A DNA stretch of 64,000 nt from Skermanella pratensis. GTDB taxonomy: Bacteria; Pseudomonadota; Alphaproteobacteria; Azospirillales; Azospirillaceae. The stretch is taken from positions 5,635,001 to 5,699,000 of the forward strand of contig NZ_CP030265.1 of assembly GCF_008843145.1 (NCBI RefSeq), written 5' to 3'. Numbering within the stretch: the first letter of the stretch is position 1; each line of letters starts with the position of its first letter. The notes under the pieces were generated by a model, which did not search any database, was not told where the DNA came from, and was given only the letters and a program-made list of their open reading frames with translations. A program made the position numbers and the translations under genes. This document shows positions 1,202 through 18,999 of this stretch, piece after piece.

Positions 1202-2326
1202 ATGAGGATCGCCTTCTACGCTCCCCTCAAGGCGCCGACGCACCCCACGCCCTCGGGCGACCGCCGCATGGCGCGGCTGCTGATGGCGGCGCTCGGCCAT
1301 GCCGGGCACCGGGTCGATCTGGCCTGCGGCTTCCGGAGCTGGGACGACGGCAAGCGGCCCGGCCGGCACCGGCGCCTCGCCGACCTCGGGGGTCGCTTGG
1401 CGGACCGGCTGGCCGCGCGGCTGCGGCGCGACCCGCCCGACCTGTGGTTCACCTATCACCTGTACCACAAGGCGCCGGACTGGCTGGGACCCGCCGTCAG
1501 CGCCGCGCTGGGCATCCCCTATGTGGTCGCCGAGGCCTCCTTCGCGCCCAAGCAGGCCGGCGGCCCCTTCGCGCTCGGCCATGAAGCGGCGGCGGCAGCC
1601 ATCGCCCGCGCCGACGCCGTGATCTCCCTCAACTCGGCCGACGCGGAGTGCCTGTATCCCCTGCTCCGGTCGCCCGGCCGGCTGACGCTGCTGCGCCCCT
1701 TCGTCGAGCCGCCGGCCCCGCGCGACCGCGCCGCGGACCGCGCCGGACTCGCCCGCTCGCTGGGGCTGGACCCGGAGGTGCCCTGGCTGCTGGCCGTCGG
1801 CATGATGCGGGGCGGTGACAAGCAGCGCTCGTTCCGCGTCCTGGCGCGCGCCCTGGAACGGCTGGGCGGCCACGACTGGCGGCTGCTGGCGGTGGGCGAC
1901 GGGCCGCGCCGGGCTTGCGTCGAGGAAAGCTTCGGCCGCGTCGATCCCGGCCGCCTCCGCTTCCTGGGCGCCCTGCCGCCCGACCGGCTGGCCGCCTGCT
2001 ACGCCGCCGCCGACCTGATGGTGTGGCCCGCCGTCAACGAGGCCTACGGCATGGCGCTGCTGGAGGCGCAGGCCGCCGGCCTGCCCGTGGTGGCCGGCCG
2101 CACCGGCGGCGTGCCCGACATCGTGCGCGACGGCTCGACCGGCCTGCTGACCCCGGTCGGGGACGAAAGCGCCTTCGCCGACGCCGTCGCGGCGCTGCTG
2201 TCCGATTCCGTCCGGCGAAGCGCCTTCGGCCGGGAAGCCGCCCGCATCGCGGCGGCCGAGCACGGCTTCGACGGCGCTTCCCAAACGCTCGACACCCTGC
2301 TCCGCAGCCTCGCAAGGTCCCGATGA
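1202..2326 (+). CDS. Family 4 glycosyltransferase
   Basis: A second GT-B glycosyltransferase (374 aa) next to the first. The ATG at 1202 follows the AAGGGG-like stretch between the genes. The N-terminus MRIAFYAPLKAPTHP is the usual beginning for this subgroup. The C-terminal half carries the nucleotide-sugar site: AVGMMRGGDKQRSF, LRFLGALPPDRL, VWPAVNEAYGMALLEAQ and GLPVVAGRTGG. The final 4 bp overlap the next gene as ATGA, implying translational coupling with the histidine phosphatase. Probably part of a surface-glycan pathway with its neighbours; donor and acceptor cannot be read from the sequence. Confidence 0.88.
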   Translation: MRIAFYAPLKAPTHPTPSGDRRMARLLMAALGHAGHRVDLACGFRSWDDGKRPGRHRRLADLGGRLADRLAARLRRDPPDLWFTYHLYHKAPDWLGPAVSAALGIPYVVAEASFAPKQAGGPFALGHEAAAAAIARADAVISLNSADAECLYPLLRSPGRLTLLRPFVEPPAPRDRAADRAGLARSLGLDPEVPWLLAVGMMRGGDKQRSFRVLARALERLGGHDWRLLAVGDGPRRACVEESFGRVDPGRLRFLGALPPDRLAACYAAADLMVWPAVNEAYGMALLEAQAAGLPVVAGRTGGVPDIVRDGSTGLLTPVGDESAFADAVAALLSDSVRRSAFGREAARIAAAEHGFDGASQTLDTLLRSLARSR

Positions 2327-2907
2327 CCGATCTTCTCATCCTGCGCCATGGTCCGACCGCCTGGAACACCGAGGGCCTGATCCAGGGACGCACCGACATC
2401 CCGCTGTCGCCGGAAGGCGAAGGCGTCGTCCGCGCCTGGGCGCTGCCGGACCGGCTCCGGGACCGGGCCTGGGTCGCCAGCCCGCTGAAGCGCGCCGCCG
2501 CCACCGCCGCGATCCTCGGGCTCGACCCCGTGCCCGACGCCCGGCTGGTCGAGATGGACTGGGGTGCCTGGGAAGGCCGGACCCTCGCCGGCCTGCGGGC
2601 CGAGCTGGGCGACCTGATGGCGGCGTGGGAGGCCCGCGGCCTCGACTTCCGCGGCCCGGGAGGCGAGAGCCCGCGCGAGGTGCAGGACCGCTTGCGTCCC
2701 TGGCTGGCGGAGACGGCCGCCGCCGGCCTGCCGGCCGGCGCTGTCGCCCACAAAGGCGTGATCCGCGCGATCTATGCCATGGCCACATGTTGGGACATGA
2801 CGGACAAGCCGGCCCATAAACTCCTCGACGGCTGCGCCCACCGCTTCACCCTGGCGGCGGACGGCACCCCCACCGTGGCCGAGCTGAACATCGCGCTGGA
2901 GATTTGA
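2323..2907 (+). CDS. Histidine phosphatase family protein
   Basis: Phosphoglycerate-mutase-type phosphatase of 194 aa. The catalytic signature LILRHGPTAWNTEG is at the N-terminus, the second arginine and acidic region is around VASPLKRAAATA and EMDWGAWEG, and the second catalytic His is in VAHKGVIRAIY. The frame stays open far upstream, but the ATG at 2323 overlaps the preceding stop (ATGA) and places the RHG motif eight residues in, as is normal for the family. Co-transcription with two glycosyltransferases suggests removal of phosphate from a sugar phosphate or glycan precursor, which is inference. It could also be a general cobalamin or sugar phosphatase. Confidence 0.85.
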   Translation: MTDLLILRHGPTAWNTEGLIQGRTDIPLSPEGEGVVRAWALPDRLRDRAWVASPLKRAAATAAILGLDPVPDARLVEMDWGAWEGRTLAGLRAELGDLMAAWEARGLDFRGPGGESPREVQDRLRPWLAETAAAGLPAGAVAHKGVIRAIYAMATCWDMTDKPAHKLLDGCAHRFTLAADGTPTVAELNIALEI

Positions 2908-3052
2908 CTAAATTCCTATGATTATATATGCTGGCGGTAGTCCAGGGGCTCGGAAAATGATGACATCCGCTGACGTTCTCCGCCTCCCTGCCATCATGGC
3001 CGGTCTTGATCCATGGCTGTCCGGCACGGCTGTCGCCCATTCGTCAGAAACC

Positions 3053-3132
3053 GTAGGTCGGGTAGAGCGAAGCGGCAACCGACACCCACGCGTCGGCTTG
3101 CGTCGGGTGCCGCTTCGCTCTACCCGACCTAC
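3053..3132. repeat. GTAGGTCGG-type inverted repeat (long hairpin)
   Basis: The left arm begins GTAGGTCGGGTAGAGCGA at 3053 and is matched by its reverse complement ending at 3132. The outer 23 bp pair perfectly, then one unpaired base, then a short loop of about 20 bp. It lies between the histidine phosphatase and the tandem array. Its outer sequence resembles the hairpins at 57687 and 59731, so it belongs to a dispersed palindromic repeat family of this genome. Confidence 0.8.
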
Positions 3133-3173
3133 GTCGCCGACGAACCGCCGCGGTGCCGCCACCAATCCCATTT

Positions 3174-3917
3174 CGTCATGGCCGGACTTGATCCGGCCAT
3201 CCGCGCGCAAACTCCGCCACGCCGGTTTGCACGTGGATGCGCGGGTCAAGCCCGCGCATGACGAGGAAGGAAATGCCTGGCGCCGTGAAGTCTTCACTCA
3301 GCGAGAGGCAGGCACCGACGCCCCCACTTCGTCATGGCCGGACTTGATCCGGCCATCCGCGCGCGAACTCCGCCACGCCGGTCTGCGCGGGGATGGCCGG
3401 GTCAAGCCCGCGCATGACGAGGAAGGAAATGCCTGTCGTCCTGAAGTCTTCACTCAGCGAGAGGCAGGCACCGACGCCCCCACTTCGTCATGGCCGGACT
3501 TGATCCGGCCATCCGCGCGCAAACTCCGCCGCGCCGGTCAGCGCGGGGATGGCCGGGTCAAGCCCGCGCATGACGAGGAAGGAAATGCTTGGCGCCGTGA
3601 AGCCTTCACTCAGCGAGAGGCAGGCACCGACGCCCCCCTTTCGTCATGGCCGGACTTGATCCGGCCATCCACGCGCGAACTCCGCCACGACGGTCAGCGC
3701 GTGGATGCGCGGGTCAAGTCCGCGCATGACGATGAAGGAAATGCCTGTCGTCCTGAAGTCTTCACTCGGCGAGAGGCAGGCACCGACACCCCCCTTTCCT
3801 CATGGCCGGACTTGATCCGGCCATCCACGCGCAAACTCCGCCGCGCCGGTCTGCACGTAAATGCGCGGGTCAAGCCCGCGCATGACGAGGAAGGAAATGC
3901 TTGGCGCCGTGAAGCCT
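3174..3917. repeat. Tandem array of five 156-bp palindromic units
   Basis: Units start at 3174, 3330, 3486, 3642 and 3798, exactly 156 bp apart; the last is truncated at about 3917. Each unit has a 7-bp stem around loop CTTGA (GGCCGGA/TCCGGCC, with arm changes in some copies), a second stem around loop TCAAG (GCGCGGG/CCCGCGC), and outer ends CGTCATG/CATGACG. The two loops are complementary to each other. A spacer of about 60 bp (GAAGGAAATGCC...GAGGCAGGCACCGAC) separates the palindromes. Because 156 is a multiple of 3, a 340-codon frame stays open across the array; it is judged non-coding. The 2908-3921 gap holds only this array and the hairpin at 3053. Confidence 0.9.
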
Positions 3918-3921
3918 TGCC

Positions 3922-5115
3922 ATGGCCCGCCGGATCATGACGACTCATGACATCCGCCCGCCCCTGAAGACCCCCCTGAAGGCCCTCGTCTGGGTGCAGC
4001 ACCTGCTCGGCATCGGACATGTCCGGCGGGCGGCGCTGATCGCCCGCGCCATGGCGGCGGCCGGGCTGGACGTCACGGTGGCGTCCGGCGGGTTCCCGGT
4101 CTCGGGCGTCGATTACGGTAATGCCCGCGTCGTGCAGCTGCCGCCGGCCCGGTCGGCGGACAAGAGCTTCAAGCGCCTGGTCGGCGAGGGCGACCGGCCC
4201 CTGGACGACGCCTGGCGGGAGCGCCGCCGCGCGGCGCTGCTGGATCTGGCGGACGCGGTCGATCCCGACATCCTGCTGCTGGAAACCTACCCCTTCGGCC
4301 GGCGCCCGTTCCGCTTCGAACTGCTGCCCCTGCTGGAACGCCCCGGGCGTCCCAGGGTCGTCGCCGCCTCCGTCCGCGACATCCTGGTGGCGAAGGACGA
4401 TCCCGCCCGCGAGGTCGAGATGGCCGACGTGGCGCGGCGGCACCTGGACCTCGTGCTGGTCCACGGCGACCCCGCCGTGGTGCCCTTCGACGCCACCTTC
4501 CCGCAGGCGCACCGGATCGCGGACCTGATCCGCTACACCGGCTACGTCGCCCCGGCCCGCGCGCCGGCCCACTCGGCCGCGAGACCGGACGGCGACGGCA
4601 CCGGGGAGGTGGTCGTCTCGGTCGGCGGCGGGGCCGTGGGATTGCCGCTGCTGCGGACCGCCCTGGCGGCGCGCCCACTGACACCCCTAGCGTCATCCCC
4701 CTGGCGCCTGCTCGCCGGTCCCGACATCGGCGAGGCGGACTTCCGGACCCTGCGCGACGACGCCCCCGCCGGCGTGACGGTGGAGCGGGCACGGCCCGAC
4801 TTCCCGGAGCTGCTGTCCCGCTGCACCCTCTCGATCAGCCAAGCGGGGTACAATACGCTGATGGACCTGATGCAGGCCCGGTGCCGGGCCGTGGTCGTGC
4901 CGTTCTCGGCCGGGAACGAGACGGAACAGACCGACCGCGCCCGCCTGTTCGAGCGGCGCGGGCTGCTCCACATCGTTCCCGAGGACGGATTGACGCCGGA
5001 ACGGCTGGCCGGTGCGATCGGCCGCGCGCTGGCGGCGGCGCCGCCCGCCGGTTTCGCCCCCGACGTGGACGGCGCCGCCGCCACCGCCCGCCTGCTGATC
5101 GAGGCCGCGTCATGA
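3922..5115 (+). CDS. MurG-like glycosyltransferase (GT28/COG4671 type)
   Basis: 397-aa GT-B protein. The N-terminus has LVWVQHLLGIGHVRRA, the glycine-rich acceptor-domain loop seen in MurG-like and COG4671 predicted glycosyltransferases. The C-terminal donor domain has VSVGGGAVG, then LLSRCTLSISQAGYNTLMDL and VVPFSAGNETEQTDRA, matching the conserved S-x2-G-x-N-T and E-Q-x2-R-A pattern. The start is ambiguous between ATG 3922 and ATG 3937 (MTTHDIRPP); neither has a strong ribosome site. It opens an operon whose members overlap by 4 bp, starting right after the repeat array. Likely adds a sugar to an envelope or secreted glycan. Confidence 0.8.
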   Translation: MARRIMTTHDIRPPLKTPLKALVWVQHLLGIGHVRRAALIARAMAAAGLDVTVASGGFPVSGVDYGNARVVQLPPARSADKSFKRLVGEGDRPLDDAWRERRRAALLDLADAVDPDILLLETYPFGRRPFRFELLPLLERPGRPRVVAASVRDILVAKDDPAREVEMADVARRHLDLVLVHGDPAVVPFDATFPQAHRIADLIRYTGYVAPARAPAHSAARPDGDGTGEVVVSVGGGAVGLPLLRTALAARPLTPLASSPWRLLAGPDIGEADFRTLRDDAPAGVTVERARPDFPELLSRCTLSISQAGYNTLMDLMQARCRAVVVPFSAGNETEQTDRARLFERRGLLHIVPEDGLTPERLAGAIGRALAAAPPAGFAPDVDGAAATARLLIEAAS

Positions 5116-18912: not shown

Positions 18913-18999
18913 TGGTGCCCAGGAGAAGACTCGAACTTCCACGACATTTCTGCCACAGGTACCTGAAACCTGCGCGTCTACCAATTCCGCCACCTGGGC
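18913..18999 (-). tRNA. tRNA-Leu (anticodon CAG)
   Basis: 87 nt including an encoded CCA (TGG on the plus strand at 18913-18915). The acceptor stem GCCCAGG pairs with CCTGGGC, discriminator A. The D arm has the class II GGTAGACGCG signature. The anticodon stem CAGGT/ACCTG encloses loop TTCAGGT, giving anticodon CAG. A long variable arm (GGCAGAAATGTC) and the T-arm GGAAGTTCGAGTCTTCT follow. Class II structure and anticodon agree on leucine, reading CUG, the main Leu codon in this GC-rich genome. Confidence 0.95.

Follow-up and report, generated by a model that had tools for sequence, protein, structure and literature searches.

Near the start of the analysed window, a stretch of 64,000 nucleotides from Skermanella pratensis, a hairpin-rich unit is repeated about five times between two genes, which raises the question of what kind of repeat this is and how it arose. 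The host genome comprises 5.87 Mb on a single contig. TRF placed the tandem array at window positions 3167-3918 with a period of 156 bp, 4.8 copies, 91% matches, 0% indels and a score of 1231, and the runner-up among the tandem repeats of the 64-kb window scored only 78. Upstream of the array there is a gene of the histidine phosphatase superfamily (2323..2907, plus strand, PF00300) and downstream a gene with a glycosyltransferase family 28 C-terminal domain (3937..5115, plus strand, PF04101). The glycosyltransferase start codon lies ~50 bp past the last REP; we chose the start at 3937 by comparison with S. stibiiresistens, and the mechanical ORF begins at 3922. We conclude with high confidence that the array arose when one CGTC-tagged REP head-to-head heterodimer was amplified locally in tandem, along with the DNA that flanks it on the left and right.

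Each 156-bp unit combines two CGTC-tagged REPs, paired head to head over 90 bp, with a 66-bp linker. All units are on the plus strand. Unit 1 (3168..3323, 156 bp) has its REP pair at 3174-3263 and its linker at 3264-3329, reaching into the lead of unit 2. It is followed by unit 2 (3324..3479, REP pair 3330-3419), unit 3 (3480..3635, REP pair 3486-3575) and unit 4 (3636..3791, REP pair 3642-3731). Unit 5 (3792..3918, REP pair 3798-3887) is incomplete with 127 bp, shows the degenerate tag CCTC and runs out into the right flank of the array. The tags begin at 3174, 3330, 3486, 3642 and 3798, so the spacing of 156 bp given in the original prediction is indeed exact. The predicted loops CTTGA and TCAAG were both observed in all five units. 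For the predicted outer ends the picture was less uniform: CATGACG occurred in all five units and CGTCATG in four, with CCTCATG in unit 5. Two stem-loops per unit were also seen as described, except that the second stem is mismatched at two positions in units 2 and 3 and at one position in unit 4. In its own reading direction each REP shows the tag CGTC, a 9-bp stem, the loop CTTGA, the other arm of the 9-bp stem and a short tail. The stem of the first REP is ATGGCCGGA/TCCGGCCAT and that of the second is ATGCGCGGG/CCCGCGCAT. The two REPs of the 90-bp module face each other, and the loops within a unit are complementary because both REPs carry CTTGA, on opposite strands. Nine of the ten REPs in the array have the tag CGTC and one has CCTC; the tail is CCA, CCG or CCC in nine of them and TTA in the remaining one.

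We then considered the possibility that the array is a collapsed or expanded repeat created during assembly. Tandem repeats are prone to misassembly and the exact copy number may be off. However, identity between the units is 86.7-94.2% over 120 bp, which sets them 6-13% apart from one another, and the orthologous array in S. mucosa carries substitutions of its own. An artefact, which had been named in advance as a reason to discard the array, is therefore extremely improbable. The linker variants alternate along the array (A-B-A-B-A) and the REP parts cluster differently. The relationships among the units are therefore mosaic and give no single order of duplication.

To see how far the REP module extends beyond the locus we searched the whole genome for its monomer and obtained 51 pattern matches, compared to 0 for the reversed control. 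The pattern fixes the tag, the loop and the two outer A-T pairs, so that their constancy among the matches is no test, and these features are shown by the array itself. The stems are more informative: for 50 of the 51 monomers, taken from loci, we found 39 perfect 9-bp stems, and shuffling the right arms 1000 times yielded 7.2 as the average and never more than 15. The stems vary in a compensatory fashion and several compensated stem types occur among the 50 monomers. The match at genome position 2487263 was kept out of this count and is probably a chance match because its stem is not complementary. Dispersed copies showed the tags CGTC, CATC, CTTC and CCTC. The most frequent tails in the 50 pattern matches were CTC (17) and CGC (13), and CCA was found in 6.

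The monomers are largely organized as dimers of one length. Close neighbours in plus-minus orientation were spaced exactly 62 bp apart in 17 of 18 cases. With a strict dimer pattern that left a gap of 20-48 nt free, we counted 29 dimers in S. pratensis, four of which are units of the 156-bp array, 27 in S. rosea, 33 in S. mucosa, 0 in S. aerolata and 1 in S. stibiiresistens. The length from loop to loop was 64 nt for 28 of the 29 dimers in S. pratensis, for 32 of the 33 in S. mucosa and for 11 of the 13 S. rosea dimers listed. Among 26 dispersed dimers 23 combine one A-type REP (GGA-CTTGA-TCC) with one G-type REP (GGG-CTTGA-CCC), and the other three pair A with A. The mostly asymmetric dimer keeps its 64 nt across differing spacers. 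It shows the tag, the stem and loop and the head-to-head heterodimer of the family 3/4 type of the CGTC REP super-family, and as a dispersed, fixed-length inverted REP doublet it also has the form of a REPIN. One dispersed dimer (genome positions 3225395-3225484) differs at ~2 positions across three species, and the adjacent DNA is strongly diverged. We also encountered composite mosaics with two to three REP pairs ~150 bp apart, which the REP pattern search located at 343729-344059, 470890-471268, 4777569-4777899 and 4851749-4852079 of the S. pratensis genome. The linkers at the three loci that were read (343.7k, 4777.5k and 4851.7k) are alike and all contain CACGGCTGTCCGGCACG; these linkers thus recur, unlike the linker of the 156-bp array.

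The original prediction held that a palindromic element was amplified locally, and it proposed searching the unit against this and related genomes. This search supports the idea: the 90-bp pair is dispersed across the genome and the 66-bp linker is local flanking DNA. When five genomes were searched with E values up to 1, the linker was found with E < 1e-5 only at the 156-bp locus and its orthologues. The next-best matches were 18-23 bp long with E values of 0.02 to 0.9, and one of them fell on the left flank in S. mucosa. Over 61 bp the first S. rosea linker is 88.5% identical to the array's right flank, and this match extends as far as the beginning of the glycosyltransferase gene. At its other end the linker resembles the left flank in S. 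mucosa (19 bp, 95% identity), although with E = 0.24 this match is strong by position only. Since both ends of the linker match a flank, the repeated unit reads as left flank, dimer and right flank. By eye ~13-17 bp of the linker, including CAGCGAGAGGCA, are in neither flank of S. pratensis. The array is bracketed by an 11-bp exact direct repeat, ATGACATCCGC, with its left copy at 2960..2970 (plus strand) and its right copy at 3947-3957. It lies outside the 156-bp unit, and 2 of 200 shuffles gave a repeat of this length; beyond it no long flanking direct repeat was found at the array. We also asked whether the flank motif ATGACATNYGCTGACRTNC is a common repeat underlying the arrays, but only 2, 2, 5, 0 and 1 copies were found in the five genomes.

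The comparison between species adds a time scale. The gene order of phosphatase and glycosyltransferase is kept in all five Skermanella species, and the number of units between the two genes is 4.8 in S. pratensis, ~3.8 in S. mucosa, one complete unit plus a remnant in S. rosea and 0 in both S. aerolata and S. stibiiresistens. Variation in unit number was thus found between species. The linker in S. rosea is of type B. The nearest relative of unit 1 in S. pratensis is the first unit of the S. mucosa array (95.8%). As the DNA around the array is ~92-93% identical between these two species, the array is probably not younger than their split. By eye the gap between the genes in S. stibiiresistens and S. 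aerolata contains no CGTC pair and instead a long palindrome with GTAGGTCGG-type ends. As an alternative to a gain in the other species, the array could have been lost in these two.

Two further arrays are built from the same kind of dimer. The first has a period of 170 bp with 2.0 copies in S. pratensis and 3.0 copies in S. mucosa, and the flanks at both places match. The second has a period of 204 bp and 3.1 copies and is located on a plasmid of S. mucosa, with a metallo-hydrolase gene on one side and a YsnF-type gene on the other. In the equivalent gap on a plasmid of S. rosea we found one dimer, bracketed by a 31-bp imperfect direct repeat with 24 of 31 positions identical (the best of 100 shuffles of one flank reached 20). 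The same direct repeat is identical at 27 of 31 positions in S. mucosa. In gapped alignments the upstream side of the S. mucosa junction matched the right flank at 38 of 43 positions and the left flank at 24 of 48, whereas the downstream side matched the left flank at 39 of 41 positions and the right flank at 23 of 51. Judged from these alignments, the junction between the 204-bp units reads as a right-then-left hybrid and provides the strongest evidence on how such arrays would start. The 170- and 204-bp arrays probably arose by the same route as the 156-bp array.

These arrays also bear on a different origin, in which the whole 156-bp unit is a MITE-like mobile element that inserted repeatedly. 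The dimer does resemble a short inverted-repeat element of fixed length, and inverted ends are present. A target-site duplication was unreadable at the single dimer-free site compared (genome position 801180, where S. mucosa has no dimer and S. rosea a degraded one), as the flanks are too divergent to read insertion boundaries or a target duplication. However, the linker is confined to the locus and its orthologues and no dispersed combination of dimer and linker occurs in the five genomes. The linkers of the other arrays differ from that of the 156-bp array, and all units share one orientation and spacing. Repeated insertion is thus a very improbable origin of the array.

Local amplification leaves the dispersal of the dimer itself to be considered. 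In S. pratensis we found 0 matches to Y1_Tnp (PF01797) with three candidates scored, and 5 of 14 control genomes were positive. The genome accordingly lacks a match to the Y1 tyrosine transposase (RAYT) by which REPINs with RAYT are recognized. We detected Y1_Tnp matches in S. rosea (5), S. mucosa (2), S. aerolata (3) and S. stibiiresistens (4). No transposase family was found in 47 of the 53 ORFs beside dimers, which is a weak test because 32 of those 47 lacked any Pfam match. We suggest only tentatively, and at a rather low probability, that the 90-bp CGTC dimer is a length-locked and mostly asymmetric mobile unit that spread in one Skermanella clade though the present genome shows no Y1 transposase.

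The period of 156 bp had also been noted for being divisible by three and thereby keeping a frame open. The frame is there: a plus-strand frame of 340 amino acids extends over 2918..3940, 156 equals 3 x 52, and one plus frame crosses the array without stops in both S. pratensis and S. mucosa. If this were a real repeat protein of 52-residue units, further encouragement could be taken from PF09597 (mS41), for which the whole protein scored 30.4 bits against a Pfam cut-off of 23.7. However, no single stretch passes that cut-off and the score is probably summed over the repeats; for PF15929 the score of 21.6 bits is below its cut-off. The 36 variable columns of nine units are distributed 12/12/12 over the codon positions. 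Across all pairs of the nine units dN/dS was 0.85 for the open frame and 0.69-0.86 for the other five frames, whereas the neighbouring glycosyltransferase gene showed 0.26 between S. pratensis and S. mucosa. Selection at the protein level, which would have spoken against the original prediction, was hence not seen. A 420-bp stretch in S. rosea, which includes part of the downstream gene, has stops in all three plus frames with a longest run of 73 codons, and the two species that lack the array have no such frame region at the locus. Finally, the 170-bp period of the sister array in this genome makes the open frame look incidental. We judged the frame non-coding and rejected a protein-coding repeat on the basis of the frame comparison and the codon-position and dN/dS tests; there is next to no chance that the frame encodes a repeat protein.

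A promoter-like site (TTGACT-17-TATGCT, 2904..2932, plus strand) lies at the phosphatase stop. At the same stop we found TTGACTAAATTCCTA, identical in all five species compared, which is in itself a possible conserved promoter or regulator site. As this sequence is the same in five species, the array is probably within a transcribed leader of the downstream glycosyltransferase gene. We found 0 intrinsic terminators in 2850-4000, where 0.6 were expected from shuffles, and no Rfam families in the array at gathering scores. The sole Rfam match in the window at these scores was a tRNA gene at 18916-18999 on the minus strand.

We also compared predicted folds. The predicted RNA fold of units 1-4 is a single long hairpin (-56.6 to -65.8 kcal/mol), and that of unit 5 consists of separate hairpins (-42.9 kcal/mol). 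When the parts were folded separately as RNA, the energies were -36.8 to -45.9 kcal/mol for units 1-4 and -42.1 kcal/mol for unit 5, and the long hairpin is thus predicted to be favoured in units 1-4 by ~11 to 28 kcal/mol. With DNA parameters and minimum energy, the long hairpin is the preferred fold of units 2-4, and local hairpins are preferred in units 1 and 5. A cruciform of the whole unit, one of the structures proposed originally, is possible for the whole pair, but the arms are imperfect (80% complementary in unit 1 and 86% in units 2-4, among the 25 of 49 pairs listed, which do not include unit 5). The other proposal, kissing of the two loops, is not needed, given that CTTGA is the loop of the family and that the predicted RNA is one long hairpin in four of five units; we dropped it as a special feature since CTTGA belongs to the REP family itself.

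The array could, on the other hand, be a selected RNA leader in which five strong hairpins in the 5' untranslated region adjust glycosyltransferase expression and the number of units sets the level. This would agree with the promoter-like box just upstream that is identical in five species, and with the units themselves, which all fold better than 200 shuffles each (z of -4.0 to -8.5). Di Nocera et al. (2013, PMC3733652) moreover argue that REPs between genes of the same direction are probably transcribed. However, two of the five species have no array at the locus, the copy number is not conserved, and the second stems are mismatched in three units of the S. pratensis array, such that strict upkeep of both hairpins was not seen. 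The linker RNA folds no better than shuffles (z of -0.35), and structured linker RNA is therefore without support. We regard a selected leader as unlikely. The array most likely persists as near-neutral repeat DNA, which fits better than a conserved device because the array is absent in two species, its unit number shifts and its stems are mismatched. It may nevertheless act to slow or stabilise the transcript.

Other repeats were observed next to the array. A separate long palindrome, GTAGGTCGGGTAGAGCGAAGCGGC..., occupies 3052..3133 with 32-nt arms that are 97% complementary and GTAGGTCGG ends. Counting monomers on both strands, its pattern occurred 16 times in S. pratensis, 18 times in S. 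rosea, 33 times in S. mucosa, 59 times in S. stibiiresistens and 0 times in S. aerolata. One copy of this type adjoins the 170-bp array. In S. stibiiresistens (G004:C10:4170-4789) two opposite GTAG palindromes of the same type bracket a weak Y1_Tnp match at 4406-4657, which is the expected look of a RAYT with its repeats. A degenerate half REP fused to GGCTGTCCGGCACGG lies at 2992..3029 (plus strand), and by eye this mosaic is also found beside other REP pairs of the genome.

Several known systems resemble the array. Escherichia coli BIME arrays likewise consist of alternating REPs in tandem between genes, with a REP sequence and spacing that differ from those in Skermanella. Among them are also the CGTC REPs of Di Nocera, De Gregorio & Rocco (2013, PMC3733652). 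According to that paper, the family 3/4 type of this super-family has at one end an unpaired CGTC tag, often TGTC or CCTC, a stem of 8-9 bp that opens with two A-T pairs, a loop of 4-5 nt and a tail that is mostly CCA. Head-to-head dimers predominate, with heterodimers in families 2 and 3, and the repeats are found mainly in alphaproteobacteria; they are described there as having no association with transposase genes and no known dedicated transposase. The Skermanella units agree with these heterodimers in the tag, the 9-bp stem with two A-T pairs, the 5-nt loop, the short tail and the unlike partners. They differ in that the tail is often not CCA and in that three arrays occur in one genus, whereas the paper describes CGTC clusters as rare and, in the portion considered, does not name Skermanella. 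It also mentions Rickettsia RPE-4 and RPE-6, CGTC-type palindromes able to lie in open frames as the Skermanella repeats do, although the Skermanella frame has no sign of being a gene. In Pseudomonas fluorescens SBW25, REPINs form tandem clusters whose unit is an inverted REP doublet as well (Bertels & Rainey 2011, PMC3116915); they occur together with flanks and the largest contains four REPINs over more than 700 bp. Unlike the S. pratensis array, in whose genome no Y1 transposase match was found, they are linked to RAYT transposases. The kind of repeat seen in the array has thus been described before, as CGTC REP dimers (PMC3733652) arranged in tandem with their flanks in the manner of REPIN clusters (PMC3116915). 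Judged by title, none of the papers found on Skermanella palindromes deals with such arrays, a wider search pointed back to PMC3733652, and nothing on CGTC dimers appears in the passages of PMC12306157 considered.

Taken as a local amplification, the array probably formed as follows. The dimer is present at the locus in S. pratensis, S. mucosa and S. rosea and absent in S. aerolata and S. stibiiresistens, and the common ancestor of the first three would have acquired a 90-bp dimer upstream of its glycosyltransferase gene. The dimer and its flanks were then probably duplicated in tandem, by replication slippage or by recombination between short flanking direct repeats, and the strong hairpin may have aided this duplication, whose outline is visible at the 204-bp array. 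From two copies on, homologous exchange would have added and removed whole units, with an outcome of 4.8 and ~3.8 units at the 156-bp locus and of 2 and 3 units at the 170-bp array.

The complementary loops and the period divisible by three may seem functional, yet they follow from the anatomy of a known repeat. If the fixed 90-bp dimer is mobile in a genome that shows no Y1 transposase, CGTC REPs would be moved by an undescribed enzyme, or the enzyme would have been lost after the spread. For the growth of arrays from REP dimers the locus provides a clean series, with none, one, ~four and ~five units at one and the same place, and a second locus offers one dimer versus three with the presumed crossover repeats visible.
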